From contig CM049316.1 of NCBI GenBank assembly GCA_026874595.1, positions 53,205,676-53,269,675 on the forward strand: 64,000 nt of DNA, written 5' to 3'. The notes beneath the pieces are model-generated. The model was given only the letters and a program-made list of their open reading frames with translations, searched no databases and was not told where the DNA came from. Positions 15,619-64,000 of this stretch are shown here, piece after piece. The position numbers and the translations under genes are program-made. The stretch's first letter is position 1. Each line of letters starts with the position of its first letter. The DNA is from Sipunculus nudus. Its lineage: Eukaryota; Annelida; Sipuncula; Golfingiida; Sipunculidae.

Positions 15619-18600
15619 ATGTCAGTTAGTAGATGCAGTGCTCACATGACCTGTCACATCAGCTTGGTCATGTCAGTCAGTAAATCCAGTGCTCACATGA
15701 CCTGTCACATGAGCTTGTTCATGTCGGTCAGTAGATCCAGTGCTCACATGACCTGTCACATCAGCTTGGTCATGTCAGTCAGTAGATCCAGTGCTCACAT
15801 GACCTGTCACATCAGCTTGTTCATGTCAGTCTGTAGATCCAGTGCTCACATGACCTGTCACATCAACTTGGTCATGTCAGTAAGTAGATCCAGTGCTCAC
15901 ATGACCTGTCACATCAGCTTATTCATGTCAGTCAGAGGATCTAGTGCTCACATGACCTGTAACATCAGCTTGTTCATGTCAGTCAGTAGATCCAGTGCTC
16001 ACATGACCTGTCACATCAACTTGGTCATGTCAGTAAGTAGATCCAGTGCTCACATGACCTGTCACATCAGCTTGTTCATGTCAGTCAGAGGATCTAGTGC
16101 TCACATGACCTGTAACATCAGCTTGTTCATGTCAGTCAGTAGATCCAGTGCTCACATGACCTGTCACATCAGCTTGGTCATGTCAGTAAGTAGATCCAGT
16201 GCTCACATGACCTGTCACATCAGCTTGGTCATGTCAATCAGTAGATCCAGTGCTCACATGACCTGTCACATTAGCTTGGTCATGTCAGTCAGTAGATCCA
16301 GTGCTCACATGACCTGTCACATCAGCTTGGTCATGTCAGTCAGTAGATCCAGCACTCACATGACCTGTCACATCAGCTTGTTCATGTCAGTCAGAGGATC
16401 TAGTGCTCACATGCATGTCACATCAGCTTGTTCATGTCAGTCAGTAGATCCAGTGCTCACATGACCTGTCACATCAGCTAGGTCATGTCAGTCAGTAGAT
16501 CCAGTGCTCACATGACCTGTCACATCAGCTTGGTCATGTCAGTCAGTAGATCCAGTGCTCACATGACCTGTCACATCAGCTTGTTCATGTCAGTCAGAGG
16601 ATCTAGTGCTCACATGCATGTCACATCAGCTTGTTCATGTCAGTCAGTAGATCCAGTGCTCACATGACCTGTCACATCAGCTAGGTCATGTCAGTCAGTA
16701 GATCCAGTGCTCACATGACCTGTCACATCAGCTTGGTCATGTCAATCAGTAGATCCAGCACTCACATGACCTGTCACATCAGTTTGTTCATGTCAGTCAG
16801 TAGATCCAGTGCTCACATGACCTGTCACATCAACTTGTTCATGTCAGTCAGAGGATCTAGTGCTCTCATGACCTGTCACATCAGCTTGTTGATGTCAGTC
16901 AGTAGATCCAGTGCTCACATGACCTGACACATCAGCTTGGTTATGTCAGTCAGTAGATCCAGTGCTCACATGACCTGGTACATCAGCTTGGTCATGTCAG
17001 TCAGAGGATCTAGTGCTCACATGACCTGTCACATCAGCTTGTTCATGTCAGTCAGTAGATCCAGTGCTCACATGACCTGTCACATCAGCTTGTTCATGTC
17101 AGTCAGAGGATCTAGTGCTCACATGACCTGTCACATCAACTTGTTCATGTCAGTCAGTAGATCCAGTGCTCACATGACCTGTCACATCAGTTTGGTCATG
17201 TCAGTAATTAGGTCCGGTGCTCACATGACCTGTCACATCAGCTTGGTCATGTCAGTCAGTAGATTCAGTGCTCACATGACCTGTCACATCAGCTAGGTCA
17301 TGTCAGTCAGTAGATCCAGTGCTCACATGACCTGTCACATCAGCTTGGTCATGTCGGTCAGTAGATCCAGCGCTCACATGACCTGTCACATCAGCTTGGT
17401 CATGTCAATCAGTAGATCCAGCACTCACATGACCTGTCACATCAGTTTGTTCATGTCAGTCAGTAGATCTAGTGCTCACATGACCTGTCACATCAACTTG
17501 GTCATGTCAGTAAGTAGATCCAGTGCTCACATGACCTGTCACATCAGCTTGTTCATGTCAGTCAGAGGATCTTGTGCTCACATGACCTGTCACATCAGCT
17601 TGTTGATGTCAGTCAGTAGATCCAGTGCTCACATGACCTGTCACATCAGCTTGTTCATGTCAGTCAGTAGATCCAGCACTCACATGACCTGTCACATCAG
17701 CTTGTTCATGTCAGTCAGAGGATCCAGTGCTCACATGACCTGACACATCAGCTTGTTCATGTCAGTCAGTAGATCCAGTGCTCACATGACCTATCACATC
17801 AGCTTGTTCATGTCAGTCAGAGGATCTAGTGCTCACATGACCTGTCACATCAGCTTGTTGATGTCAGTCAGTAGATCCAGTGCTCACATGACCTGTCACA
17901 TCAGCTTGTTCATGTCAGTCAGTAGATCCAGCACTCACATGACCTGTCACATCAGCTTGTTCATGTCAGTCAGAGGATCCAGTGCTCACATGACCTGACA
18001 CATCAGTTTGTTCATGTCAGTCAGTAGATCCAGTGCTCACATGACCTGTCACATCAGCTTGTTCATGTCAGTCAGAGGATCTAGTGCTCACATGACCTGT
18101 CACATCAGCTTGTTGATGTCAGTCAGTAGATCCAGTGCTCACATGACCTGTCACATCAGCTTGGTCATGTCAGTAAGTAGATCCAGTGCTCACATGACCT
18201 GTCACATCAGCTTGTTCATGTCAGTCAGTAGATCCAGCACTCACATGACCTGTCACATCAGCTTGTTCATGTCAGTCAGAGGATCCAGTGCTCACATGAC
18301 CTGACACATCAGCTTGTTCATGTCAATCAGTAGATCCAGTGCTCACATGACCTGTCACATCAGCTTGGTCATGTCAGTCAGTAGATCCAGTGCTCACATG
18401 ACCTGTCACATCAGCTTGTTCATGTCTGTCAGAGGATCTAGTGCTCACATGATCTGTCACATCAGCTTGGTCATGTCAATCAGTAGATCCAGTGCTCACA
18501 TGACCTGACACATCAGCTTGTTCATGTCATTCAGAGGATCCAGTGCTCACATGACCTGTCACATCAGCTTGGTCATGTCAGTCAGTAGATCCAGTGCTCA

Positions 18601-18893
18601 CATGACCTGTCACATCAGCTTGGTCATGTCAGTAAGTAGATCCATTGCTCACATGACCTGTCACATCAGCTTGTTCATGTCAGTCAGTAGATCCAGTGCT
18701 CACATGACCTGTCACATCAGCTTGGTCATGTCAGTCAGTAGATCCAGTGCTCACATGACCTGTCACATCAGCTTGTTCATGTCAGTCAGAGGATCTAGTG
18801 CTCACATGACCTGTCACATCAGCTTGGTCATGTCAGTCAGTAGATCCAGTGCTCACATGACCTGTCACAGCAACTTGCCTTGGTCATGTCAGT
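15619..18893 (+). repeat. 51-bp tandem array, about 64 copies
   Basis: The unit reads ATGTCAGTCAGTAGATCCAG followed by TGCTCACATGACCTGTCACA and TCAGCTTGGTC. Period is 51 bp, with common variants (GTCAGAGGATCTAG, GTTCATG versus GGTCATG, GTTGATG). A 1-bp deletion in the ATGCATGTCAC variant occurs at 16411 and again at 16614, 203 bp apart (three 51-bp and one 50-bp unit), marking a local four-unit duplication. Because 51 is divisible by three, one frame stays open as a 17-residue repeat and gives spurious open frames up to 281 codons. Stops recur, and there is no splice context. Confidence 0.97.
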
Positions 18894-22049: not shown

Positions 22050-23800
22050 TGAGCATTGTTGTACAGATAGACCCACAACATTGTTGTATAGATAGACCCA
22101 CAACATTGTTGTACAGATAGACACACAACATTGTTGTACAGATAGACACACAACATTGTTGTATAGATAGACACACAACATTGTTGTACAGATAGACACA
22201 CAACATTGTTGTACAGATAGACACACAACATTGTTGTATAGATAGACACACAACATTGTTGTACAGATAGACACACAACATTGTTGTACAGATAGACCCA
22301 CAACATTGTTGTATAGATAGACTCACAACATTGTTGTACAGATAGACACACAAAATTGTTGTACAGATAGACACACAACATTGTTGTATAGATAGACACA
22401 CAACATTGTTGTACAGATAGACCCACAACATTGTTGTATAGATAGACCCACAACATTGTTGTACAGATAGACACAACATTGTTGTACAGATAGACACACA
22501 ACATTGTTGTACAGATAGACCCACAACATTGTTGTATAGATAGACCCACAACATTGTTGTACAGATAGACCCACAGCATTGTTGTATAGATAGACACACA
22601 ACATTGTTGTACAGATACACACACAACATTGTTGTACAGATAGACACACAACATTGTTGTATAGATAGACCCACAACGTTGTACAGATAGACCCACAACA
22701 TTGTTGTATAGATAGACCCACAACATTGTTGTACAGAGAGACACACAACATTATTGTATAGATAGACCCACAAAATTGTTGTAACCCACAACATTGTTGT
22801 ACAGATAGACACACAACATTGTTGTACAGATAGACACACAACATTGTTGTACAGATAGACACACAATATTGTTGTACAGATAGACCCACGGCATTGTTGT
22901 TCAGATGGACACACAACAATCTTGTACTGATAGACACACAAAATTATTGTACAAATAGACCCACAACGTTGTTTTACAGATAGACACACAACATTGTTGT
23001 GCAGATAGACCCACAACATTGTTGTACAGATAGACATGCAATATTGTTGTACAGATAAACACACAAAATTGTTGTACAGATAGACACACAACATTGTTGT
23101 ACAGATAGACCCACAACATTGTTGTACAGATAGACCCAAAACATTGTTGTGCAGATAGACATGCAACATTGTTGTACAGATAGACACACTACATTGTTGT
23201 ACAGATAGACACACAACATTGTTGTATAGATAGACACACTACATTGTTGTACAGATAGACACACAACATTGTTGTACAGATAGACACAACATTGTTGTAC
23301 AGATAGACACACAACATTGTTGTACAGATAGACACACAACATTGTTGTACAGATAGACCCACAGCATTGTTGTATAGATAGACCCACAACATTTTTGTAC
23401 AGATGGACACACAACATTCTTGTACAGATAGACACACAACATTATTGTACAGATAGACACACAACATTGTTGTACTAATAGACCCACAACATTGTTGTAC
23501 AGATAGACACACGACATTGTTGTACAGATAGACACACAACATTGTTGTACAGATAGACACACAACATTGTTGTACAGATAGACCCACAACATTGTTGTAC
23601 AGATAGACCCACAGCTTTGTTGTACAGATAGACACACAACATTCTTGTACAGATAGGCCCAAAACATTCTTGTACAGATAGACACACAATATTCTTGTAC
23701 AGACAGACACACAACATTGTTTTACAGATAAACACACAACTTTAAACAGAGAGGCACACAACATGGTTATAAAGATAGACACACAACATGTTTATACAGA
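22050..23800 (+). repeat. 25-bp tandem array, about 70 copies
   Basis: The unit is ACATTGTTGTACAGATAGAC plus ACACA (CCACA and TATAGATAG variants). Period is 25 bp, with occasional shortened copies (for example near 22468, 22677 and 22782). Each unit carries ACAAC-ATT-GTTGT, a short inverted repeat with a 3-base loop. Since three units make 75 bp and the complementary strand lacks stops in the unit, all three minus-strand frames are open and give spurious open frames of up to 391 codons. Copies become degenerate after about 23640. Confidence 0.97.
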
Positions 23801-24229
23801 AAGGCACACAGCTTTGAACATTCTAGATATCCCATAGAGGAATAGACATCAATGCTAGATAGATATTGCACCAGACTGTTCAGTAAAGGTTTAAACAATT
23901 AAATTTTAGGATACCAGTATTCTCATCTTGTGACAGTTTAATTTGTATAACACATATTCTATCACTCTAATAATAGTAAAGGACTCCCCAGCTAAATGAC
24001 CAGTCACTGGTTCACAACAAAAATCTTGGCATTCAGTTAAAATTGTTTATAACCTATTCTGAATGGCCTCAGTCTTGGGCCAGATTTACCAAACTTACTG
24101 TCAAAGATCACAAATCACATGTGGAAGTTATTAAAAAGAACTAGGCCAGATCTTAGGCCAGATCTTATGAAAGGAGAACTAAGTCCATTTGGATCAAATT
24201 AAACTGTAGTTTCTACAATTGTTTTGCAG

Positions 24230-47212: not shown

Positions 47213-48240
47213 TTAGCTCAGCTGACTGAAAGTCATCTGAGCTATAGGGATCACTCTTTGTCCATCATCCGTCTGGTCGTTTGGCCGTCCATCTGTTAAC
47301 AGTCGGTACCACAGTGCAAAATTTCAAATTAATTTTCTGAACTTCTTTTTGTTACCAAATTAAAGTTTAGATTAATACAAGGTATATAGTTTTTATTTGA
47401 AGTTTCTATCTCAAATAATAAAAAAGTTATGAACCATTGAAGCACCCCCAAAATGACCCCAAAATCGGGCGATTTTGCAGAAAACGACAAATTGTGATTT
47501 CAAGAGCCCATATAATTAAAAGTTTGCAAAATTGATGTCTTGTAAGGATATAATTTGATTAATATTATAGAGTTATACATGCCTATTTTTTTTCAGAGCA
47601 TAACCTCTGGTATTTTTAAAGTTATGAAACCCTAAAAGTGGGGACTTATTCTTTTTATCAAAGTGTCAAATCGGTGAAAACGGTGATTTGGTGACTTTTC
47701 ATCAAATAATGGACACTATTTTTTTAAAATGTCTAACTTATTAAACTTAAAAGGGGTCATATACACTCATGGTTCCACTTCCTTTATTATATTAAGAAAA
47801 TCATCAATCACACCACCATATAAATGAGTTTTTCCACACAAATATATGAAATATATTGATTTATTTATGATATTTAATCACATATTGTGACATTACTCAA
47901 GCACATAATCAACAAAATAGTTACATATTCACCCCAGCCATATTAACTCACTACTAAGCTGGAATAAACTGTTTTGAGATCAATTAAAATTAATTATCAA
48001 TAATAAAAAAATAAATAAAAAACTATCCAGGAAGGAAGATTTTGATTTTATCACATTTTGCTCAAATTTTCATGCTAGCCCGTATCATCTCACTGCTTCT
48101 TCTAAATAAGCACAAGGTAAAATGGAGTGTGAGTCCAGCTTGGAATGCAAATTCTCCAACATTTTCTGGTGATTGGCATGGCTCCAGATTATAAAAGTCC
48201 AATCTCTGCTCTGTCAGATACAAACTTGAAACTTGAAATA
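47213..48240 (+). repeat. Family 1 repeat head with a divergent core
   Basis: Begins with the family 1 head, TTAGCTCAGCTGACTGAAAG near 47213, then TCATCTGAGCTATAGGGATC and a degenerate CCGTC-type tract. The core (about 47320-48060) differs from the 338-bp monomer: it has AAGTTATGAAxCC segments and phrases such as CAAATCGGTGAAAACGG. No 3' end was seen before 338-bp monomers begin at about 48245. Confidence 0.65.
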
Positions 48241-48244
48241 TATA

Positions 48245-49320
48245 TATAATAACAGGGCACAAATCGTTACCGCTGGTACTGGAATCTTCCAACTTGACAT
48301 CCTGGGAGGGCCATAAAAAATCTCCATGGAAACCAGAAATTAGGTCTCTGTTACCCATATTCTCCAAGCTATAAGGTCTCGAAAGTACCCCCAAGAATAA
48401 TAAAAAATTTCATACAAAAGGTCAAGTAGCTGTATAACTACTGCCTTGATCACCATGATTCTCTGGATGAACATTGATCATGGAGTGTTCCATCAGTTCC
48501 TGTGAACTTGTGGCACCACCTGTATTTTTTCCAATTTTTACAAATTTTTTTCCCTATTTTGGAGACCTTTGAAGAATCGGTCATCTGTTAACAGGGCACA
48601 AATCATAACCACTCGACCTGGAATCTTCTTACTTAACATCAAGGGAGGTCCATGAAAAATCTCCTTGGAAACCTGAAATTAGGTCTCTGTTACCCATAAT
48701 CTCTGAGCTATGGGGCTTGTAAGTACCCCTCAGAATAATTAAAAATATATACAAAAGCTTCAGTATCTGAATAACTGATGCATTGATCACTATTGATTCT
48801 TTGCATGAGTATTGATCATGGATTGTGTTCCATCAGTTCCTGCAAACTGGTGGCGCCACCTATATTTTTTTCCAATTTTTACGATTTTTTTTCTTTATTT
48901 TTGAGACCTTCAAAGAAGCTGTCATCTGTTAACAGGGCACAAATCGTAACCATGAAACCAGGAATCTTCTAACTTGATATAAAGGGAAGTCCATGAAAAC
49001 CTGAAATTAGGTCTCTGTTACCCATATCCTCTGAGTTATGGGGCTCGTAAGTACCCCTCAGATTAATAAAAAAAGTTCATACCAGTGCTCCAGTATGTGA
49101 ATAACTAATGCACTGATGGCTATGATTTTTTGCATGCATATTGATCATGGAGTGTTTCATCAGTTCCTGCAGACTGGTGGCATCACCTGTATTTTTTAAA
49201 AAAATGTTTACACATTTTTGTATCCGCCAAAACAGAGTTTTGGGTATACTGTTTTTAGTTGGATGCCACCGCCGCGGCATAGGTCCGGAGAACCCATCTG
49301 TAACCACTTGGTGGAATTTT
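48245..49320 (+). repeat. Family 1 core monomers, three copies
   Basis: The landmark AACAGGGCACAAAT recurs at 48249, 48594 and 48932, a spacing of 338-345 bp. Each monomer runs AATCTTCYAACTTGACAT, CCATGGAAACCTGAAATTAG, GTCTCTGTTACCCATAT, TTGATCATGGAGTG, CAGTTCCTGCA, then CTGGTGGCGCCACC or a variant, and a T-rich spacer. The monomer translates in places to short hydrophobic frames that are not conserved between copies. Confidence 0.9.
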
Positions 49321-52300
49321 TTAGATCAGCTGACTTTAAGTCATCTGAGCTATAGGGATCACCTTTTGTCCATCGTCCGTATTGCTGTCTGGCCGTTAAC
49401 AGGGCACAAATCTTAACCGCTGGACCTGGAATCTTCTAACTTTACATCCAGAGAGACCTATGAAAAGTCTCCATGGAAACCAGAAATTAGGTCTCTGTTA
49501 CCCATATCCTTCGAGCTATGGGGCCCCAAAGTTCCCCCCAGAATAGTGAAAAATTTCATACAAAATCTTCAATATCTCATTAACTACATCACTGATGGTC
49601 ATGATTTTTTGGCATACATATTGATCATGAGATGTTTCATCAGTTTCTGCAGACTGGTGGCGCCACCTGTATTTTTTGATTTTTTACGATTTTTTTTCTC
49701 CATTTTTGAGACCTTTAAAAATGTGGACATCTGTTAACAGGGCACAAATCGTAAAGACTGGACCTAGAATCTTCATTCTTGACATTCTGAGAGACCTATG
49801 AAAAGTCTCCATGGAAACCAGAAATAAGGTCTCTGTTACCCATATCCTTCGAGCTAAGGGGGCCCAAAGTACCCCCCAAGAATAGTGAAAAATTTCATAC
49901 AAAAACTTCATTATCTGATTAACTACATCACTGATGGTCATGATTTTTGGCATACAAGTTAATCATGAGATGTTTCATCAGTTTCCGCAGACTGGTGGCG
50001 CCACCTGTATTTTTCGATTTTTATGCCCCCGCCACAAAGTGGCCGGGGCATATAGTTTTACCCATGTCCGTCCTTCCGTCCTTCCGAAATAAAACAGTTG
50101 TACGGACTTTTTTTCGCAATGCCTGCAGATATTGGCCTGATTTTTGGTGTGTGGGCAGATAATTACCAGTTACAGATAGAGTTCGCGTTTTGTCCTGGTT
50201 GACCTACTTTTGACTGTTTTACAGCTCCTTAACTTAGAAAATTTCATGAAAAATAGAAATTTTCATGACAAATACACATGTACAGACTTTTTTTCGCAAT
50301 GCCTGCAAATATTGGCCTGATTTTTTGTGTGTAGGCAGATAATGTGTAACCAGTTACAGATCGAGTTTGCGTTTCGTCCTAGTTGACCTACTTTTGACCG
50401 TATTACAGCTCCTTAACTTAGAAAATTTCATGAAAAATAGAAATTTTCATGACAAATACACATGTACGGACTTTTTTTCGCAATGCCTGCAGATATTGGC
50501 CTGATTTTTGGTGTGTGGGCAGATAATGACCAGTTACAGGTAGAGTTCACGTTTTGTCCCGGTTGACCTACTTTTGACCGTTTTACGGCTCCTTAACTTA
50601 GAAAATTTCATGAAAAATATTATTTTCATGACAAATATATATGTACAGACTTTTTTTCACAATGCCTGCAGATATTGGCCTGATTTTTGGTGTGTGGGCA
50701 GATAATGACCAGTTACAGATCATGTTTGCATTTCGTCCCAGTTGAATTACTTTTAACTGTTTTATGGCTCCTTAACTTAGAAAATTTCATGAAAAATATA
50801 AATTTTCATGACAAATACACATGTACGGACTTTTTTTCGCAATGCCTGCAGATATTGGCCTGATTTTTGGTGTGTGGGCAGATAATGACAAGTTACAGAT
50901 CAAGTTCACGTTTCGTCCCAGTTGATCTACTTTTGTACGTTTTACGGCTCCTTAACTTAGAAAATTTCATGAAAAATATTATTTTCATGACAAATATATA
51001 TGTACAGACTTTTTTTCACAATGCCTGCAGATATTGGCCTGATTTTTGGTGTGTGGGCAGATAATGACCAGTTACAGATCATGTTTGCATTTCGTCCCAG
51101 TTGAATTACTTTTAACTGTTTTATGGCTCCTTAACTTAGAAAATTTCATGAAAAATATAAATTTTCATGACAAATACACATGTACGGACTTTTTTTCGCA
51201 ATGCCTGCAGATATTGGCCTGATTTTTGGTGTGTGGGCAGATAATGACAAGTTACAGATCAAGTTCACGTTTCGTCCCAGTTGATCTACTTTTGTACGTT
51301 TTACGGCTCCTTAACTTAGAAAATTTCATGAAAAATATAAATTTTCATGACAAATACACATGTACTGACTTTTTTTTCGCAATGCCTGCAAATATTGGCC
51401 TGATTTTTGGTGTGTGGGCAGATATTGACCAGTTACAGATCGAGTTCGCGTTTCGTCCCAGTTGACTTATTTTGACCGTTTTACGGCTCCTGAACATAGA
51501 AAATTTCATTAAAAATATAAATTTTCATGACATATACACATGTACTGACCTTTTTTTTTTGCACTACCTGCAGATATTGGCCTGATTTTTGGTGTGTGGG
51601 CAGATAATGACCAGTTACAGATCGAGTTCATGTTTTGTCCCATTTTACCTACTTTTGACGGTTTGACGGTGCTCTAACATACAAAAAATTCATTAAAAAG
51701 TGCACATGTACGGACTTTTTTTCGCAATGCCTGCAGATACGGGCCTGATTTTTTATGGGCAGATAATGACAGTTACAGATCGAGTTCATGTTTCATCCCG
51801 GTTGACCTACTTTTGATTGTTTTACGGCTCCTAAACATAGAAAATTTCATGAAAGACAGAAATTTTTCTGGAAAATGCACATGTATGGACTTTTTTTCAC
51901 AGTCTATGCAGATACCGGCATGATTTTTGGTGTGTTGCTTGATAATGACCTGTAACAGATCGAGTTTGCATTTTGCCCTTGTTGACCTACGTTTGACCAT
52001 ATGACTACTGAACTTAAAATTTGTTTTCAAAATTTAACAAATGTTTCTAATTTGCCCCAGGCGGGGGCATTCATGTCGTTCCGACACATCTAGTTTACGA
52101 ATTGTTTTCTCTATTTTTGACACCTTTAAAAATGTGGACATCTGTTAACAGGTCACAAATCGTAAAGACTGGACCTAGAATCTTCATTCTTGACATTCTG
52201 AGAGACCTATGGAAAGTCTCCATGGAAACGAAAAATTAGGTCTCTGTTACCCATATCCTTCGAGCAAAGGGAGCCCAAAGTACCCCCCAGAATTGTGAAA

Positions 52301-52430
52301 AATTTCATACAAAAACTTCAATATCTGATTAACTACATCACTGATGGTCATGATTTTTGGCATACATATTGATCATGAGATGTTTCATCAGTTTCTGCAG
52401 ACTGGTGGCGCCACCTGTATTTTTCAAATT
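49321..52430 (+). mobile_element. Family 1 element interrupted by a family 2 element
   Basis: The head (AGATCAGCTGACTTTAAG variant at 49323) is followed by two 338-bp monomers up to about 50021. The T-rich spacer of the second is split by 50022-52093 and resumes at 52094 as TTTACGAATTGTTTTCTC, after which another monomer continues to about 52430. The split shows that the family 2 element inserted into an existing family 1 copy. Confidence 0.8.
50022..52093 (+). mobile_element. Family 2 composite element (Helentron/Helitron-like, non-autonomous)
   Basis: Starts with ATGCCCCCGCC (50023-50033), which opens a hairpin (GCCCCCGCCAC, 3-base loop, GTGGCCGGGGC; 50025-50049). A CCGTCCTT-type tract follows, then about eleven tandem monomers of about 180 bp. 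Each monomer has GTACGGACTTTTTTTCGCAA, GATATTGGCCTGATTTTTGG, CAGTTACAGATCGAGTT, CGGCTCCTTAACTTAGAAAA and TTTCATGA. The 3' end has the inverse GGCGGGGGCAT (52060-52070), a second hairpin TGTCG-TTC-CGACA (52074-52086) and CTAG before T at 52090-52094. There is no coding sequence. Subterminal inverse motifs, a tandem core, a 3' hairpin and a CTAG-T end agree with non-autonomous Helentron/Helitron elements. Assignment is by architecture only. Confidence 0.7.
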
Positions 52431-53434
52431 TTTAGCTCAGCTGACTTTCAGTCATGCTGGGCTATAGCGATGGGTCTTTGTCCGTCGTCCTTCCGTCTGT
52501 CTGTCCGGCCGTCCGTCCGTCCGTTAGCAGGGCACAAATCGTAACTGTAGGGGCTAGGGCCATGAACCCTATGCAGTCTTAGAGGTTATAAAAAGATCTC
52601 CTTGCAAACCTGAAATTAGGTCACGGCTCCTAAACATAGAAAATTTCATGAAAGACAGAAATTTTTCTGGAAAATGCACATGTATGGACTTTTTTTCACA
52701 GTCCCTGCAGATACCGGCATGATTTTTGGTGTGTTGCTTGATAATGACCTGTAACAGATCGAGTTTGCATTTTGCCCTTGTTGACCTACGTTTGACCATA
52801 TGACTACTGAACTTAAAATTTGTTTTCAAAATTTAACAAATGTTTCTAATTTGCCCCAGGCGGGGGCATTCATGTCGTTCCGACACATCTAGTTTACGAA
52901 TTGTTTTCTCTATTTTTGACACCTTTAAAAATGTGGACATCTGTTAACAGGTCACAAATCGTAAAGACTGGACCTAGAATCTTCATTCTTGACATTCTGA
53001 GAGACCTATGGAAAGTCTCCATGGAAACGAAAAATTAGGTCTCTGTTACCCATATCCTTCGAGCAAAGGGAGCCCAAAGTACCCCCCAGAATTGTGAAAA
53101 ATTTCATACAAAAACTTCAATATCTGATTAACTACATCACTGATGGTCATGATTTTTGGCATACATATTGATCATGAGATGTTTCATCAGTTTCTGCAGA
53201 CTGGTGGCGCCACCTGTATTTTTCAAATTTTTAGCTCAGCTGACTTTCAGTCATGCTGGGCTATAGCGATGGGTCTTTGTCCGTCGTCCTTCCGTCTGTC
53301 TGTCCGGCCGGCCGGCCGGCCGTCCGTCCGTCCGTTAGCAGGGCACAAATCGTAACTGTAGGGGCTAGGGCCATGAACCCTATGCAGTCTTAGAGGTTAT
53401 AAAAAGATCTCCTTGCAAACCTGAAATTAGGTCA
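51825..53434 (+). repeat. Tandem segmental duplication of 799 bp
   Basis: 51825-52623 and 52624-53434 are near-identical. They include the 3' end of the family 2 element, a family 1 monomer and the next family 1 head. Landmarks such as GCGGGGGCATTC (52061, 52860) are 799 bp apart. Past the CCGG/CCGT tract the offset is 811, because the second copy has gained 12 bp of GGCC repeats. The junction is at GAAATTAGGTCA. Confidence 0.92.
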
Positions 53435-55678
53435 CTGCGACCTATATTCTCGAAGTTATGGGGTGTGTTTGCACCCCCCAGAAATAACTCTTTGAGACAA
53501 AATTTTCATCCTAAACCTTCCATCTTTCACATACAGCTCACCTACCAACAGGGGAAGAACCATAATTTTTTTTAGGTCAAAAGGTCAAAGGTCAAGGTCA
53601 CAGGAGCCTCTTCATTGAAAAGCCTGTGGATGCATTTTAAGCAAACCCTTTCATCCCAATTCTTTGATTCTTCACATATAGCTCAACTACTAAGTTGGAG
53701 AAGAATCCTATAGATTTTAAGGTCACAAGGTCAAAGGTCAGGGTCACAGGATCCACTTCTTTGAAAAGGTTGTGGACACATTTCAAGCTAGACTTTTCAT
53801 TCCAAACCTTCCAGCACTGATATCGCTTCTCTGCCAACAGGGGAAAAGATCTGTTGATTTTGAGGTCAAAGGTCAAGTTCACAGCACCCACTTCTTGCGT
53901 GGAGTCATTTTCAGGCAAACTTTTCAATCTGTACCTTCCATCTGTCATATATGGCTTACCTACCAATAAGAGAAGAAGCCTGTTGATGTTGAGGTCAAAA
54001 AGTCAAAGGTCAAGGTCACAATGTTTAATTGTTCTAAATGCTTGTGAGCATATTTCAAGTGTAACTGTTCAACCCAAACCTTCAGTCTTTCACATATGCC
54101 ACATCTATGCATCAATCAGTTTGACTCAAACTTCATATTTATGGGTCTTTTTGCTTGAATAAATAACTTATTGATTTTGGGGTCAGCTGGTCAGCAGGTT
54201 AAAGGTTGCAGGTCAAAGTTATTCACCCATTGGTTGCCAAGTAATTACACCAGATTTAAGTGGTTAGTAGTTACCCATCATTTAGAAAGAATCCAGTTGA
54301 TATATGGGCAAACTGCCAAGGTCATAGGTCAGGGATGTTCACAATTACTTATTTTATAGACCATCTCTATTTTTCTTGTATATATAACCATCCCACTTCA
54401 GCTGGTACATCTCCCTGTGTGGCTGTAATTGTGAGTGACACTGGTGACATATGACTCCCTTTTGTATCAGCCTATTAAGTGATAAGGCTCAGTGATAAGT
54501 ACCTCGTTACTTCATAACAAAAACACTGTTGTCAGAATGCTTCAGCCAGGCATTAAGACTATGAGAGTATAGTATTAAGGTTTAGCTACTGATTTATAAG
54601 ATGATGGGAACATTTTGCAGTTTATTTTATGGAATCCTAGCAATAAACTTAGTTTCCTAGATATCTGAATATTTTAATATATATCACCACATATAAAAGC
54701 AAGTGTTTGTTCTCATAATATGTTGATGTGTACCTTGATTTAGGATGTTTTTTTGTTTTATTTCAAGACTCTTAGTCATGCTTTCTGCATTTCTTTTCTT
54801 TCAGGTTTGGCAGTTTACCTACCCTGCTGACCCCATTGAAAAGCAGAGTGATAATAAAAAATATTGGACTTACACTTTTTACAATTGCATATCTATAAAT
54901 CTGAAATGAGGGCCTGGACATGCCTTTTGAATTATTTTGGGCATTCATTACTGGATAATTTGCTCCAAGTTTGGTCTCTTATTGGAGAATGTGGGATATC
55001 AAATGTCATACTTGTCAGAAATCCATTATGTCTGCCAGTTAGCCACCTTAGAAATTCTTTCTTCAGTGCAGTTTCAGTAATTTTTCTTTAATGTTTGGTC
55101 CGATTTAGAGAATGTTTGTTGTCTGATTTCAGACTTGTCAGAAGTCCAATATGGCCACCAGGCAACCATCTTTTAATTCCTTTTGATCATATTATCTCAA
55201 GAACAGTTAAAGTGAATGCAGTTGGATGTATATTTATGTAATCTTGTAAAGGATTGGGTCAAATATTTCTGAATAAATATTACCATCATTTACAAAAGTG
55301 CAGTACAGTTGGCTTGTATTGAATAAAAATTCATACAGAAGCACCTGTTTCTCAATAATTCTTGCATGTATTTCCTTGATTTTTGCTATATATTTTGATC
55401 TTATATTTGCCCTTTGTGGTGTTCCTTTGAGACTGACAGGTTTCAAGCAAGCTGTTGGAATAGTTCCTGATAGCTTAACAATCATGCATTTTCCTCAGAC
55501 CATCAATTCACTGTGTTTTAACCAGACATAGGTGATATATTTTTCTGTTGTCATAGAAAATTTTCAACAAATTGGCAAATTGGTTCTTCAAAATTTGACT
55601 GGAAGTTGTGAATCTCAGTCCATGATGTCACAGGTCATGCTTGGCAGCTGAGCGTCATGACCCATGGGTCACTTGTTA
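53231..55678 (+). mobile_element. Family 1-type element with an AGGTCA-rich core
   Basis: It has the family 1 head (AGCTCAGCTGACT, 53233) and an expanded GGCC/CCGT tract. Its core then differs, with imperfect units of about 130-148 bp (CCTTCCATCTTTCACATA ... CTACCAACAGGGGAAGAA ... AGGTCAAAGGTCAAGGTCAC) near 53515, 53659, 53807, 53936 and 54078. Further units of another type occur near 54965 and 55097 (CTTGTCAGAAxTCCA). The 3' end has GCAGCTGAGCGTCATGACCC from 55644, with the palindrome TGACCCATGGGTCA at 55658-55671. Whether head and tail belong to one insertion is inferred. Confidence 0.6.
53574..54016 (+). promoter_or_regulatory. Clusters of AGGTCA nuclear-receptor half-sites
   Basis: At 53574-53600 four AGGTCA hexamers follow each other with spacers of 2, 1 and 0 bases (DR2, DR1, DR0). 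Related runs recur near 53720-53745, 53860-53880 and 53990-54016, one in each repeat unit. AGGTCA direct repeats are the canonical binding sites of RXR-type and other nuclear receptors. Whether they are bound here is unknown. Confidence 0.35.
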
Positions 55679-55689
55679 CAATTTATTTT

Positions 55690-56852
55690 TCTCTATTTTT
55701 GATACCTTTAAGGATGTAGTTATCTGTCAACAGGGTTCAAATTGTAACAACTGGACCTAGAATCTTCATTCTTGACACACAGGGAGACCCATGTAAAGTC
55801 TCCATGGAAACCTGAAATTAGGTCTCTGTTACCCATATCCTTTGAGCTATGGCACTCCAAAGTACAGCTCAGATTAATGGAAAATTTGATACAAAAGCTG
55901 AAGTATCTGAACAACTAATGCATAGATCACCATAATTGTTTGCATGGATATTGATCATGGAGTGTGTCATCAGTGTCTGCAGCCTGGGTGCGCCACCTCT
56001 ATTTTCTTTTTATTTTTTACGAATTGTTTTCTCTATTTTTGAAACCTTTAAAAATGTGAACATCTGTTAACAGGTCACACTCGTAAAGACTTGACCTAGA
56101 ATCTTCATTCTTGACACACAGGGACACCCATGAAAAATCTCCATGGAAACCTGAAATTAGGTCTCTGTTACCCATATCCTTTGAGCTATGGCACTCCTAA
56201 GTACAGCTCAGAATAATGGAAAATTTGATCCAAAAGCTGAAGTATCTGAACAACTAATGCAGAGATCACCATAATTGTTTGTATGGATATTGGTCATGGA
56301 GTGTTTCATCAGTTTCTGCAGCCTGGTGGCACCACATGTATTTGTTCGGGCTTTTTTCGAATTTTTTCTCTATTTTTGAGACCTTTAAAGATATGAACAT
56401 CTGTTAATAGGGCACAAATCATAACAACTGGACCTAGAATCTTCATTCTTTACACACAGGGAGACCCATGAAAAATCTCCATGGAAACCTGAAATAAGGT
56501 CGCTGTTAAGCTGTATGGCTTCAAAGTACCCCCCAGAATTATGAAAAATTGGATACAAAAGCTGAAGTATCTGAACAACTAATCCAGAGACCACCATGCT
56601 TCTTTGCATGGATATTGACCATTAAGTGTTTTTATTAGTTTCTACAGACTGGTGGAGCCACCTGTATTTTTTTAAAGTTTACACATTTTTTCTCTGTTCT
56701 TGAGATATATTAATACAGACACAATCTCAGCCTGTTGGTTAATCTGTTTGATGCTTCAGTTTAATGGTTATATACTACCATTCAGATGATAAAATTTCCT
56801 TTTGCAAATCTCTTCCCAGTCAGCTGAGCGTCATGACCCGTGGGTCACTTGT
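55690..56852 (+). mobile_element. Family 1 element, core monomers and 3' end
   Basis: Three monomers (landmark AACAGGG/AACAGGTCACA/AATAGGG at 55730, 56068 and 56407, spacing 338-339 bp) are followed by the 3' end AGTCAGCTGAGCGTCATGAC at about 56819 with its palindrome and CACTTGTTT. No head is seen, so the copy is 5'-truncated or joined to the preceding one. Confidence 0.8.
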
Positions 56853-56884
56853 TTAAATTTAGGATTATGATCGGGTCACATTTT

Positions 56885-57906
56885 TAGCTCTCATTTTTAG
56901 TTGACCTCTGACCTTTCCTCTCTGCCCAGCGTCCATATGTGCGTCTGTTTCCACACATAAACCCACATATCTCGGGAACCGTTTGACTGATCAGGCTAAA
57001 AATTTTGAGCAAATGTAGCCCTTGGATGGCTTTATAACCTACACTAAAATGGTGGCGCCACCTGCAACCATTTTTGCACAGCATCCATTTGTTCATCTGC
57101 CTTGGGATAAAATCACTCAAATCTCTGCATTGGCTGGACTTATCCACCTGAAAGTTTGCATGTGTATACATCCTAGAAAACTTTCTTGATTTTGTGGCAG
57201 GTGGCACCACCTACATTTATGTTTAAGCCGCAGACATCCAGGCTTATTTCTCTGGACTGGTTTGCTGTATCCTTCTGAAATTTTGCATGTGTATAGATCT
57301 CTATAGCTCTTAATCATACACAAAACTGGAGGCACCACCTGCAACCATTTTTGCACAGTGTCCATCTGTTTGTCTGCCATAGGCTAAAATCACTCATATC
57401 TCAGTAGTGGTTTGACTTATCTGCCTAAAATTTTGCATGTTTATACATCTTGCATAGCTTTCTAGATTTTGTGGCAGGTTGCACCAGCTACATTTATGTA
57501 TACGCTGCAGACATTCAGGCTTATATCTCAGGATTGGTTTGACATATCCCCCTATAATTTTGCTTGTGTATAGATCCCACATAGCTTTTAATCATATGCA
57601 AGATTGGTGGTGCCATCTGCCACCATTTTTGCACAGTGTCCTTCTGTTTGTCTGCTGTGGGATAAAATCACTCATATACAAGTAGTGATTTGACTTATCT
57701 GCCTACAATCTGTATACAACTTGGACAGCTTTTGGGATTGTGTGGTAGGTGGCGCAACCTACATACACATTTCGGCTGCAGAGATCCATGCTAATATGCA
57801 ACACTCCTCACTCTATTTCCCCTTGCAATTTAATCCATGCCTCACGTCACCTGTCCCACTCATATTTTGGTGGATACACGTCGCTTGTCGACTACCTGTA
57901 TTCTAG
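56885..57906 (+). repeat. Family 4 tandem repeat, about 285-bp units
   Basis: Starts with a TTAGCTCTCATTTTTAGTTG stretch and a GTCCATATGTGCGTCTG tract. Imperfect units follow, each with CACTCATATCTCAG-like, TTTGACTTATCTGCCT-like, TTTTGCATGTGTATACAT-like and GGTGGCGCCACCTGCAACCA-like segments. The landmark ACCATTTTTGCACAGTGTCC is at about 57068, 57345 and 57622. No 3' end was recognised. Confidence 0.75.
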
Positions 57907-58428
57907 TTATCTCTATGTTTGAGACCTTCAAATAAAGCCTCATATTTTAAGAGGGCACAAATAGTAACCCCTTGACCTAGAATCTTCATACTTGACATCT
58001 AGGGAGGTCCATGAAAAGTCTTCATGGAAAATTGAAATTAGGTCTCTGTTACCATTATTCTCAGAGCCAATGAGCTCATACCCCCCCCCCCCCCCCCCCC
58101 CGAATGATCAGAAATATGATACAAAAGCTCCAGTATATGAATAACTTATGCATTGATTTCCTTGATTCCTTGCATGGATATTGATGATGGAGTGTTTCAT
58201 CAGTTCCTGCAGACTGGTGGCACTACCTGTATTTTTTTCAAAATTTTACACATTTTTCTATTTATGAGACCTTCAAATGAAGTGGTCATCTGTCCAAAAG
58301 CCCACTGAAACCAAATTCTTAGGATTCTTCACAAAATTCATGATTTTTTTGGTACTTTTGCTGTCATTTTGCTCATTGTTTAACATTCCTTGAATTCAGC
58401 TGAGCGTCATGGCCCATGGGCCACTAGT
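57907..58428 (+). mobile_element. Family 1 element, short copy with CTAG end
   Basis: One monomer (AGAGGGCACAAATAG at 57951), broken by a long poly-C tract (about 58081-58101), then a fragment of a second. The 3' end has CAGCTGAGCGTCAT, the perfect palindrome GGCCCATGGGCC (58411-58422) and CTAG followed by T (58424-58428). Confidence 0.78.
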
Positions 58429-58795
58429 TGATTGAGTCCAGACAGCTTTACGCTTAAAGCTCTCCAGGTTTGAAGACTTTAATATTAAATGTATTTGAGA
58501 CATACTGGTCCTGCCCTAACTAAACAGATATATTGTGAAGTATGGTGACAGTATATTATGTATATCACATACATTATATGAAACGTTTATAAAAAAGTGC
58601 TGACAAGATCTACCAGCAAAATTACTGAAATAATGGTAGCAACAAAAGTTCCTAAGTTACAGTAATGATTGGATAATTATCACACAGAGAATACTACAAT
58701 CAGTAATGTGGCCCCAAATGAAATTATTGAAGATCCTTGAAGAATGTAACTTGGATTTTTATATTTAGCTCTTTTATGTTCTTGCTTCTGTACAG

Positions 58796-58883
58796 GAGTC
58801 ATTAGACCACTCCAAGAAGTCAGCCACAACCTCCAAGGCAGGAGTGACATCTGGTGGCCAGTCATCAAAGAAGCCCCAAGGAG
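58796..58883 (+). CDS. LRRCC1: LRRCC1 coding exon 7 (basic/Ser-rich linker)
   Basis: An 88-bp exon encoding residues 307-335 and one base of codon 336. The protein is Ser/Lys-rich (ESLDHSKKSATTSKAG ... SSKKPQG), a flexible basic linker before the main coiled coil, as in animal LRRCC1. The acceptor TTGCTTCTGTACAG ends at 58795 and the donor GGAG/GTCAGT is at 58884. It joins exon 6 in phase 0. The next exon must enter in phase 1 and was not found before the end of the window, so the long coiled-coil half lies outside. Confidence 0.75.
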
Positions 58884-59437
58884 GTCAGTTATTTCTGCAG
58901 TCATTTCTGGAGAGAACTCTGTGAACTTGTGAAGTTGAAGGGGTGTTTCTAGTATTATGTGAATATTTAACCCTTTAGAAAAAATACCCTCAGGTAACAT
59001 TGCATGAAGCAGATTTTTTTTTATAATATACTTGTGCACTATTGAATGCTGAGGTAATATTGACAGGACTTTTGGGACCATTTATTCACCCTTTAAATAC
59101 AGGTATAAAGAGTGACAGTAAATAGTTCAACTGATAAACTTACATCAAGTAAGTGAACGTGAAGTGACCTTTAGAGGGCAATTTAGGGCAGGTATGGACA
59201 GTAAAGCTTTTAGTATAACATTCTCTAAATGGATGCAAAAGTTACATAAATTATTTATGAAGATACAGGTATTAGATTGTTTGTACAAACATTTTCCAAC
59301 AGAAGAGTAAGTCCAATATTCTTTAAGCCATAATCTAGGTGGCGCTACCTCCTGTGTATGTGTTAGGTTGACTAGTGTGTTACAGGATTGGAATCCATGT
59401 ATATCTGAAGCAAGAAACATGTTCTCTCATGTGTTAT
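58884..59437 (+). other. LRRCC1: LRRCC1 intron 7, plain part
   Basis: Non-repetitive AT-rich intron sequence starting GTCAGT. It holds a lone AGGTGGCGCTACCT variant of the shared palindrome near 59337. No exon is supported. Confidence 0.6.
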
Positions 59438-60772
59438 TAGCTCAGCTGACTGAAAGTCATCTGAGCTATAGCAATCACTCTTTTGTCTGTCGTCCATCTG
59501 TCTGTCTGTCTAGCTGTCTGTCCCTCTGTCCTTACGTTAACCAGGCACAAATCGTAACCACTGGACCTGGAATCTTCCAGCTTGACGCCTAGGGAGGTCT
59601 ATGAAAACTCTCCTTGGAAACCTGAAATTGGGTCTCTGTTACCCATAACCTCAGAGCTATGGGGCTCCAAAGTACCCCAAGAAGACTGGGAAATTTAACA
59701 CTAAAGCTCAAGTATCTGAACAACTATTGCATTGATCACCATAATTCTTTGCATTGATATTGTTATGGAATGTTTCATCAGTTTCTGCAGTCTGGTGGCC
59801 CCACCTGTATTTTTTAGATTTTTTCGAACTTTTTCTCTATTTTTGAGACCTCTTAAGATGCGTTCATCTGTTAACAGGGCCAGATCATAATGACTAGATC
59901 TAGAATCTTCTCTCTTGACATGCCAGGAAACCCATGAAAAGTCTCCACGGAAACCTGAAATTAGATCTCTGTTACCCTATCCTCTGAGCTATGGGGCTTC
60001 TAAGTACCCCCTCCCCTCCCCCCCAAGAAAATTTGATACAAAAGCTCAAGTATCTGAACAATTGATGCATTGATCACCATTTTTCTTTGCATGCATATTC
60101 ATTTAGGACTGTTTCGTCAGTTCCTGCAGACTGATGATGCCACCTGGATTTTTTTTTCGAATTTTCATGCATTTTTTCTCTATTTTTGAGACCTTCCAAG
60201 ATGCAATTGCTTGTTAACAGGGTACAAATTGTAACCATTCAACCTAGAATCTTCTAATTTAAAATGTACAGAAGTCAATGAAAAAATCTCCTTGGAAATC
60301 TGAAATTAGGTATCTGTTACGCATATCCTTTGAGCTATAGGGCTTGTTAGTACCCTTCATTATAATTAAACATGTCATATAAAACCTTCAGTTTGTGAAC
60401 AACTAATGAATTTGTCACCATGATTCTTTGCATGCACATTCATCATGGAGTGTTTTACCAGTGCCTGCAGACTGGTGGCACCACCTGGATTTTTCAAATT
60501 TTTACGCACTATCTTGAGCCCTTATAAGATGTGGTTGTCTATTAACAAGGCACAATTTGTAACCATTGCACCAAGAATCTTCTAACTTGACATCCAGGGA
60601 TGTCCATGAAAAATCTCCTTGGAAACCTTGAAATAAGGTCCCTGATACCCATGTCTTCTGAGCTATGCTCAAGTTGAATGGGGATACCACCTACAGAATG
60701 TTGCATTGATAAAATTCCTTTTGTGAATCTTTTCCTAGTCAGCTGAGCGTCATGACCCCTGGGTCACTTGTT
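59438..60772 (+). mobile_element. Complete family 1 composite element (Helentron/Helitron-like)
   Basis: The best whole copy of family 1. The head AGCTCAGCTGACT (59439-59451) is followed by TCATCTGAGCTATAG and a TCTG/CCGT tract (59490-59530). Four core monomers follow (landmark near 59539, 59872, 60211 and 60543, spacing 332-339 bp). Then come the inverse of the head, AGTCAGCTGAGC (60737-60748), the hairpin TGACCC-CT-GGGTCA (60753-60766) and the end CTTG before TT. There is no coding sequence. The layout is the same as family 2 although the sequences are unrelated, and it fits non-autonomous Helentron-type elements. Confidence 0.75.
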
Positions 60773-61540
60773 TAGCTCAGCCTGACTTTAAATCATCTGA
60801 GCTATAGTTGTGGTCCAATGTCCGTTGAACTAGCACGTTTTGTAACTGTTAGACCTATGAATCCAAAATTTGTATACTGTTAGATGTCCATAAGATCTCC
60901 TACCAAACCGAAAACTGGGTCCCTGCATCTTTTTCCTTTGAGAATTTAAGGAAAAAACCCTCAAATTTCCATTAAAAACCTATTATCACACTTCAGGACA
61001 ACCTAATATCAAAACCCTTCATCTTTTTTTCTTAATAATTACCAGGAGTATTCTCCTATATATTTCCTATATACATGCCAGAAATTAAGACTGTTTAGTG
61101 AGATTTCTGTAAGTTATGGGCTTGAACATACTGGACTCGTTAAAATCAGGAAAAATATTTGCTCACTTAACAGGAAAATTATTGAAGCTAGAGACTTTTT
61201 TCCAAGTATATAACTCTGTTTAATTAAGATTCAGTTATATACCCAATATTAGATCTGAATTTATGAAACAATTAAGTTATTGGCATAAAATAAAATTAGT
61301 ACCATAAATTTTGCCCAACTTTGAACAAGGCACATTTTTTTCCTGCAAGTCCTGTTGTTTTAATTTTCATAGCATTTAAATATACTTAACTTTTTTTTTA
61401 AAGTAATTCAAGGAGTAATCCAGAAGATGCCAATCTTGTGTTAATATAACATTTATATATATATAAATATACATTTGTATGCATGATGTGGTGTTATCTG
61501 TTTGAAATTTATGATGATGCAATTTAGAATTATGAATCTA
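60773..61540 (+). repeat. Second family 1 head followed by an unrelated core
   Basis: Directly after the preceding element comes another head (AGCTCAGCCTGACTTTAAAT at 60774, then CATCTGAGCTATAG) and GTCCGTTGAACTAG. The following sequence has no 338-bp monomer and fades into AT-rich DNA with a short TATATATA tract near 61450. Likely a truncated or diverged copy. Confidence 0.55.
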
Positions 61541-64000
61541 TTTTTAGCGAACCTGTGAGCTTATGCGATGGTGTGGCAGCGTCCGTCGTCCGTCGTCTGT
61601 ACGTTAACCCATACTATCTTGAAAACGGCAAGAGGTAGCATCACGAAATTTTATGCAAAAAATTAGTCATCTAAAAAACTATATCGGATTTTGCTTATTT
61701 TTTGGCTAACTGCATTTTATTAGATTTTATAGGGAGAAAGCTAAAAAAGCTTTAAAAATCTTCTTCTCAGAAAATGTTCAGCTAAATTGTCCAATATTTC
61801 ACAGAAATGATTCCTGGAATAATCTTTCTCAAGTTTGTTCGAATGGTTTAAGTTCGGTGATTTTTGGCTGAGTTACAGGAAGTTGAACTTAGTCATCTGT
61901 CCATAAAAGCATACTAGAATTACAATCTCGGAAACGGCTGGAGCTATCATCACCAAATTTTATGCCAATGTTGTTCACATGAGACATATCTGAAATTGAG
62001 GTATTGGTGGCGCCACCTGCATCGACCTTTTTTGTACAGGGGTCATCAGTGCCAGTATCATACTGACGGCTACAAAAAACTTCTTCTCTTAAACCATATG
62101 GCCAAATAGTTTAATATCACACAGAAATGGTCCTAGGGTAGTGCTTTCTGAAGTTTGTTCAAATGGTCTAAGTTCAGAGACTTTTGGCTGAGTTATGGGA
62201 AGCTGAATTTAGTCATATGCTGTAACAGCCCATTTTAGCTCAGTGGCTACAAAGATCTTCTCCTCAAAAACCACTGGGCCAAATTCTTAAATCTCACACA
62301 TTAATTATCCTTAGATGTTGATAATTCAAGTTTGTTCAAATGGTTTTGGTTCAGTGATTTTTGGCTGAGTTATGGTAAGCTTAACATTTTGCTGTATTTT
62401 CCCATATGAGTTATAAACCTGTAAAATTTTTTTGGACTGACCCTACTGAGGCCAATTTGTTTAATATTTTACAAGAATAATCCCCTGAATAATTCTTATA
62501 ATAATTGTCTTTTATGGTTCCAAAGAATGAATTTAAGCTGAATTATAAAGGTTCAATTGAGTCATTTTACCATATATGTTAGCTGTGTGAAGCAGATACA
62601 CAGATACATCTAGATACATCTAGACTGGCACCAGTTTATCAGCATTTATTACATCATGCCTCTAGATATTTAGATTTCAGGTTATCTATGGTTAATATTG
62701 ACAAGAATGTTTTTTAAAAGCTTTTAAAAAATGTAGATTTATGATATTTAGATATTCCTCATGCCAGGCAATGTTTACAATCACAGGTATACAGCTCTCT
62801 GTGGGTATATAAAGATGGCTGTACATGGATTATAAATAATTGGTATCCATAGTCAAATTAATTCAAGATTTTGCCATCAGTGAGATGTATCTGTATTACA
62901 ATTTTGCATTCAATATGCATCTGTATTAATTTTTAGTGAACCTGTGAACTAATGCGATGGTGTGGCGGCGTTTGTCTTCTGTATGTTTACCCATACTATT
63001 TTGAAAATGATTGGAGCTTGCATCATGAAATTTAATGCAAAAAATTAGCCATCTGAAAATTTTCTTAAATTTTATAGAGAAAAGGCTAAAAAAACCTTTA
63101 AAAATCTTCTCCTCCGAAACACTCAAGCCAAATTGTTCAATATTTCACAGAAATAATCTTTTATGCCATCTCCTTCAATTTTGTTCAGGAAGTTGAAAAA
63201 AGCATACTAAAATGACAGTCTCAGAAGCAGCCAGAGCTATCATCACCAAATTTTTTGCCAGTGTTGGTCACATGAGTCATATATGAAATTCAGGTATTGG
63301 TGGCGCCACCTGAATTGACCTATTTTTGTACGGGGGTCATTGGTCATCTGTACATTAATCCATAATTTCTCAGGAATAGCAGGAGCTACCATGCATTCCC
63401 AGATTTTATGCAATTATCTGTCACATATCAAAATTTGTGGGATTCAGCTTATTTTTTTGCTATCTTCATTTACTTAGATTTTATAAGGAAAAGGCTGACA
63501 ATATTTTAAAAGTCGTCTTCTTGTAGACGGTCCAGCCAAATAGTTAAATATTTTACATAAATGATCCCAGAGGCAAGCCCTCACAAGTTTGTTCAAATGG
63601 TTTGCATTTGATGAATTTTAGTGGAGTTACACAAATTTGAACAGTCATTTGGCCAAGTAAGCATACTGACATAGTACTCTCAGAAATGACAGAAGCTAGC
63701 ATTACCAGGTATTGTGCAAATGTTGGTCACATGACTCATATTTGAAGTTGTAGATTTAGTGGTGCCACCTACATTGACCTGTTTTTTATGGGCAAAAAAA
63801 CCTCATAATTTTAGCCTCTTTCAGCTTAATGATAAAACTGTCAAGTTGAATTGTTCAATTTTTTCGAAAGAATTATCCTAGGACATGGTTCTTTTAATCA
63901 TATCAGAATATACTGAGTTTGTTGATTTTTGGTTGAGTTGTGAAAAGCTTAAGTTGGTCTTATGGCCATTATTATGTCTTTTTCAAACTGAGGACTGCAA
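61541..64000 (+). repeat. Family 3 composite repeat, two heads
   Basis: The head TTTTAGCGAACCTGTGAGCT (from 61542, then TATGCGATGGTGTGG) with a GTCCGTCGTC tract recurs at about 62932 as TTTTAGTGAACCTGTGAACT, 1,388 bp later. Each is followed by imperfect units of about 180-240 bp with CTTCTTCTC, CAAATxGTTxAATATTTCAC, CAAGTTTGTTCAAATGGTTT and GATTTTTGGCTGAGTTAT segments, and by one GGTGGCGCCACC (62006, 63299). The second copy runs to the end of the window, and no 3' end was seen. Confidence 0.7.

Follow-up and report, generated by a model that had tools for sequence, protein, structure and literature searches.

We found that two repeat families of one common design, lying in a 64,000-nucleotide stretch of the Sipunculus nudus genome, are very probably both non-autonomous Helentrons (HINEs), related by internal deletion to two distinct Helentron lineages present in that genome. 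The stretch, hereafter the window, has the coordinates G000:C11:53205676-53269675; the genome comprises 153 contigs and 1.43 Gb. For each family we identified large partner elements that begin with the family's own head, carry its tandem core, contain a match to a Rep domain and end with its own tail. Partners with the same ends and satellite-like repeats suggest what may move the HINEs and where their repeats may have arisen.

Two repeat families of one design

In both families the head is followed by an inverted copy of its motif, a microsatellite and the tandem core; after the core come the inverse of the head on the 3′ side, a hairpin, and CTTG or CTAG before T. The complete family-1 copy (59439..60772, plus strand), recognized by its paired head and tail, begins with the A of AGCTC at 59439 and ends with CTTGTT at 60772. 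Its head (59439..59467) consists of the subterminal inverted repeat (subTIR) AGCTCAGCTGACT and an inverted copy, AGTCATCTGAGCT; its tail (60737..60772) holds the 3′ subTIR AGTCAGCTGAGC, the inverse of the head motif at 12/12 bases, followed by the hairpin TGACCC-CT-GGGTCA and CTTGTT. The complete family-2 copy (50023..52095, plus strand) begins with ATGCCCC at 50023 and ends with CTAGTT at 52095. Here the head (50023..50050) is made of the subTIR ATGCCCCCGCC and the inverted copy GGCCGGGGCAT, and the tail (52060..52095) of the 3′ subTIR GGCGGGGGCAT, inverse to the head motif at 11/11 bases, the hairpin TGTCG-TTC-CGACA and CTAGTT. The second inverted motif copy just inside each head corresponds to the 'IR' of HINE/DINE-1. 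Using Tandem Repeats Finder, core periods of 338-341 bp were obtained for family 1 and of 180/359 bp for family 2, whose core (50099..51998) is built of 180-bp monomers with a 359-bp double period. The 338-bp monomer was also considered as a dimer of 169 bp, which was rejected as its halves are not alike above 200 shuffles.

The two complete copies share no similarity above 100 shuffles on either strand. No open reading frame (ORF) of at least 80 aa was found in the family-1 copy, and the family-2 copy holds a single one, of 85 aa on the minus strand. An Rfam scan of the window at gathering thresholds gave no match. Both families have the features of HINEs, namely subterminal inverted repeats at both ends, an IR followed by a microsatellite, a 3′ palindrome and no coding capacity.

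The family-2 copy lies within a family-1 core. A family-1 head with two 338-bp monomers (49323..50022, plus strand; recognized by head, tandem period and alignment) is interrupted at the family-2 head, and the monomer resumes directly after the family-2 tail (52096..52434, plus strand), where 52094-52434 is 94% identical to 49683-50023. When the two flanks were joined they aligned to an uninterrupted family-1 monomer at another locus (L005) without a gap (114/120 identical), and also to monomers in many other fetched loci. The first-pass annotation of the window had described two dissimilar families with one architecture of motif, microsatellite, 338- or 180-bp core, hairpin and CTTG or CTAG before T, one inserted in the other. 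The insertion is borne out by this empty site, and the architecture stands except that the inverted motif copy beside the head had been overlooked. The ends it gave were close: 60772 is exact, 59438 moves to 59439 and 50022-52093 to 50023-52095.

Ends, hairpins and empty sites across the genome

The family-1 tail pattern, allowing at most 2 mismatches, was found at 16,782 places in the genome and the family-2 pattern at 4,292, against 0 and 1 places for the respective reversed-pattern controls, so these tails are not chance matches. We fetched 20 loci per family, chosen among exact matches in 100 listed places. The choice was made by the exact subterminal motif and the first bases of the hairpin, so that conservation of those bases is not independent; the remaining hairpin bases, the end and the flank played no part in it and are independent. 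CTTGTT ends the tail in 19/20 family-1 loci and an exact CTAGTT in 15/20 family-2 loci. Beyond these hexamers the DNA varies among the fetched loci, except for four tandem copies within one family-2 locus, L039 (C9:17321914-17327275), where four tails spaced at about 1,380 bp share one flank and reflect local tandem duplication of element and flank. At another locus (L025, near position 2201) a family-2 tail motif does not mark an end but leads back into core sequence of that family.

The hairpin TGACCC/GGGTCA is kept in most family-1 copies. A variant family-1 tail in the window (58394..58429, plus strand, by tail match), which ends in CTAGTT, has TGGCCC/GGGCCA, a paired change of A-T to G-C that is also seen in L069 and L071. 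The hairpin is not fully paired in some single copies and in the tails of one Rep lineage (lineage B, below), a statement that includes tails outside the pattern-picked sample.

Pairing heads to tails gave 15 complete HINE copies, 4 of family 1 and 11 of family 2, window included; a sixteenth pairing, of a window head with a duplicated tail, was dropped. TT precedes the head in 15/15, and by eye none of the 15 has flank repeats longer than 3 bases, T-runs aside. In addition to the window copy, family-2 copies in another family-1 monomer (L022) and in another repeat (L024, with small gaps) match uninterrupted sites. Among the family-1 HINE copies tested no clean empty site was found, and the family-1 case comes from a partner element only (below). 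Apparent empty sites for family-1 copies in L005 and in the window were artefacts, one flank being itself a family-1 end; that of L033 was ambiguous and the matches for L036 were of low complexity, and both were set aside. In the copies tested, both families sit in T-rich sequence at TT without target-site duplication.

These observations bear on the idea that the repeats are no more than satellite arrays in which inverted motifs arose by chance, and that duplication, not transposition, spread them. Local tandem duplications do occur, in L039 and in the window itself, where 51824-52624 and 52623-53435 form an 813-bp duplication that is 98.3% identical. For the copies tested, however, this idea is contradicted by fixed ends with unrelated flanks and by empty sites lacking duplications, and we regard it as scarcely credible.

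Rep/helicase elements with the same ends and cores

At least 143 genome matches to the Helitron Rep-like domain PF14214 were found (150 of 195 candidates scored). Downstream DNA was examined at 26 Rep loci, for one of which (L046) it extends only about 390 bases past the frame. On the Rep strand a family-1-like tail is present in 8 of the 26 and a family-2-like tail in 1; one further family-1-like tail lies on the strand opposite to Rep. A structure-based search downstream of the Rep loci gave no clear further tail family, with one repeated candidate in the related L041, L053 and L054.

Since a tail near a Rep gene could belong to a nested HINE, element boundaries were tested. Three loci of one Rep lineage, lineage A (L043, L067 and L068), align at about 98% up to one base past the tail, and two of lineage B (L045 and L064) align up to the tail. 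The boundary was shown for these five of the eight loci, the other three being L066, L069 and L071. For a family-2 element on C3, 29/41 non-self matches to its 3′ region end at query positions 670-673, its CTAGTT ending at 671; the remaining matches end elsewhere, mostly inside the query (40 of 1,074 candidates scored).

Six elements were found with both ends and a PF14214 match between them. Four belong to family 1 (C17:35625477-35640361, C10:71595572-71611300, C5:42907356-42923483 and C1:71789259-71805195; 14.9-16.1 kb) and two to family 2 (C3:41766493-41778497 and C5:20300944-20313329; 12.0-12.4 kb). All six begin with the head and, still at the 5′ end, the tandem core of their own family, followed by the Rep domain and the tail of that family. 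Putative autonomous Rep/helicase partners with the same ends are thus present for both families. A family-1 head on C11 precedes the same 5′ DNA as the partners, as known from the head side only. In the C17, C10, C5 and C3 elements the core continues into element-specific DNA that is common to the copies. The window family-1 copy matches the C17 element at 77% over 1,281 columns of head and core and at 94% over 35 bases of tail; the corresponding values for the window family-2 copy and the C3 element are 84% over 1,281 columns and 85% over 55 bases of tail. With cores only 77-84% identical, the HINEs may derive directly from other elements than those read.

Empty sites of partners were sought genome-wide for the C17, C3 and family-1 C5 elements. 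For the C17 element, an uninterrupted site lying about 97 kb off matches the joined flanks at 91% with no duplication; the alignment is gapped in the T-run and, beyond it, by a single base. For the C3 element, each of the 40 listed places of a dispersed repeat spans the joined flanks, and one of these places is within the window (61639-61763); at the two places read the junction differs by at most 1 base, in the T-run. The joined flanks of the family-1 C5 element gave no match spanning the whole junction.

These results weigh on the proposal that the heads and tails found close to Rep genes come from independent HINEs, inserted within or next to Rep elements to which they are unrelated, and that something else moves the HINEs. 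HINEs are very common and frequently nested: tails occur on both strands of L066, and in L067 (C10:71594089-71597089) a lineage-B-type tail begins 9 bp after the lineage-A tail. Against this, Rep-element copies whose flanks differ all start at the head and finish at the tail, heads and cores pass into DNA specific to the element, and the joined outer flanks match uninterrupted sites. We consider nesting very unlikely as the general explanation.

In the C17 element, Pfam matches to DUF6570, Helitron_like_N and PIF1 lie in an open frame of 2,342 codons. In the C3 element the pieces of the frame match DUF6570, Helitron_like_N and PIF1. Both proteins contain PHxH and YxxxYxxK motifs. Lineage A and lineage B proteins are 62% identical, and the family-1 (C17) and family-2 (C3) proteins are 30-33% identical over three aligned stretches. 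Since the Reps are only 30-33% identical, the one architecture in two families points to two separate Helentron lineages. As a side observation, the N-terminal part of the 2,298-aa ORF of L043 matches Herpes_teg_N (PF04843, 1.8e-11) at residues 19-166; at that same end, but deeper inside, the related protein of L041 matches OTU.

The first-pass annotation had inferred a Helentron-type, non-autonomous identity and had pointed to three kinds of evidence: exact ends from a comparison of copies, target sites without the insertion, and an autonomous Rep/helicase element that shares the hairpin and the head motif. The ends proved nearly constant, copy alignments stopping at the tail; empty sites were obtained for family-2 HINEs and for one partner per family, with none clean for a family-1 HINE; and the six partners supply the third, so that ends, empty sites and partners all support that identity. 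In the copies tested we saw neither target-site duplication nor scattered ends, and the tails are conserved genome-wide, the opposite outcomes being those it had listed as refuting.

How these elements would move can be proposed from the partner layout of private head, microsatellite, family tandem core, DNA coding for a two-histidine, two-tyrosine Rep and a PIF1-type helicase, and private tail. The partner Rep would recognize the private subterminal motif and 3′ hairpin, and nick near CTTG or CTAG. Rolling-circle replication would then displace a single strand, which would be joined into a T-run with no target-site duplication. HINEs would descend from partners by internal deletion.

Several findings weigh against this account. 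Neither tail lies downstream in 17/26 Rep loci, L044 included, with a protein 84% identical to that of lineage A (the C17 partner). In the roughly 14.8 kb upstream of the lineage B frame no head was found. The C17 endonuclease match scores 20.6 bits, under the curated cut-off of 24.5, no endonuclease domain was found in the family-2 pieces scanned, and the C3 frame is split. The C17 and C3 elements were read throughout and the others in parts, the C10, C5 and C1 elements outside their middles. Finally, the core identity of 77-84% between HINE and partner lies below the 98% (Drosophila) or 84-99.9% (mite) in PMC4067079.

Stacked heads and further copies in the window

Three family-1 partners, on C17, C10 and C5, have a second head inside the first, at a distance of 724, 1,056 and 1,080 bases, respectively. 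To the left of the inner heads lies nearly the same stretch of family-1 monomer; outside the first heads the DNA differs. Stacking of this kind is consistent with insertion of an element into a family-1 core, followed by movement of the composite from the outer head, the order of events being our inference. In the window, the same T-rich stretch of the monomer took the family-2 copy (50023) and another family-1 head (52434).

It could be argued that the HINE design and core came first and that partners acquired them, a Rep element having landed in or beside a HINE and now moving from the HINE head. The stacked partners, in which an outer family-1 head and core was added before the inner head, speak for this, as do close proteins with different 3′ regions: L044 (C13:9104500-9114000) aligns to L043 over the coding part, the DNA match stops near the frame end, and neither tail lies within about 3.6 kb. 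The ends of L044 have perhaps been exchanged. However, the inner head and the tail of the stacked elements are also of family 1, so the element was already of that family, and both family-2 partners have a single outer head in the DNA read. We hold acquisition of ends to be unlikely, although less so than nesting.

A wider reading may be offered tentatively, at somewhat less than even odds in our judgement. The tandem core would be a resident part of the autonomous Helentron and not host DNA captured by each HINE. The T-rich stretch of its monomer would serve as a landing pad for kin, giving stacked heads, replication from outer head to inner tail and composites that are still mobile. On that reading, stacking could be a route by which Helentrons gain or renew 5′ ends and tandem cores.

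The window contains further family-1 sequence on the plus strand: a head with no tail paired (47215..47243, by head match), a family-1-type tandem array of period 341 bp (48250..49197, by Tandem Repeats Finder and alignment) and the tail of another copy (56818..56853, by tail match). A family-1-like head at 60773-60803 directly abuts the tail of the complete family-1 copy. The duplication at 51824-53435 doubles one family-2 tail, one family-1 monomer and one family-1 head; the second family-2 tail, ending at 52894, was considered as a second insertion and rejected, as it lies inside this duplication. Other tandem arrays are found at 25220-46491 (58-bp units, 21 kb), 15619-18877 (51-bp), 22054-23810 (25-bp) and 57040-57709 (277-bp).

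Comparison with known systems

The families resemble Cg_HINE of Crassostrea gigas (PMC7492417) in the 5′ subTIR with a nearby inverted copy, the GTCY-type microsatellite, the tandem core, the 3′ subTIR and the palindrome. They are also alike in the T-rich target without duplication and in the existence of mutually unrelated families of one design (group 3). This likeness is one of architecture. The Cg_HINE monomers are 138-181 bp, whereas family 1 here has 338 bp. Pearl, DTC84 and MgE of other bivalves, named in the same paper, are similar by description, Pearl having short flanks around up to six core repeats. PMC7492417 thus already describes the HINE architecture, its T-rich target and the occurrence of unrelated families sharing one design.

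What appears to be new is the link of HINE families to Rep elements of the same genome, with the core inside the Rep element. In C. gigas ten autonomous elements with a Helentron-type Rep motif could not be related to Cg_HINEs (PMC7492417), in contrast to the partners with the same ends and cores described here. In the open literature available to us, including PMC11136912, PMC12628747, PMC10294476 and PMC8268682, we found no HINE-partner link of this sort in bivalves, and one may be in print elsewhere. Two unrelated HINE families are each tied here to Rep/helicase elements with the same ends and core, with empty sites for one element per family. In oyster, HINEs carry satellite-like arrays through the genome (PMC7492417). 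Whether a core is inherited from the partner or captured becomes directly testable, and defined pairs of Rep and ends are now at hand for a mobility assay.

Canonical Helitrons differ at the 5′ end. Their 5′ TC and insertion at A/T are not seen here, where heads start with A after a T-run, and the 3′ CTRR fits the family-2 CTAG but not the family-1 CTTG. Proto-Helentron-Pi of Phytophthora (PMC4067079) has a 3′ CTAG like family 2; it is described as Helitron-like in structure, whereas the ends here have Helentron-type subTIRs. A parallel for the pairing of HINE and partner is given by HINE/DINE-1 and the Helentrons of mite, mosquito and Drosophila (PMC4067079), which have the same subTIRs and stem-loop in HINE and Helentron and a TT target without duplication, and the mite HINEs are described there as deletion derivatives of Helentrons. 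Identity between HINE and partner is 98% in Drosophila and 84-99.9% in the mite, compared with 77-84% here over head and core. In S. nudus the partners themselves carry the tandem core.

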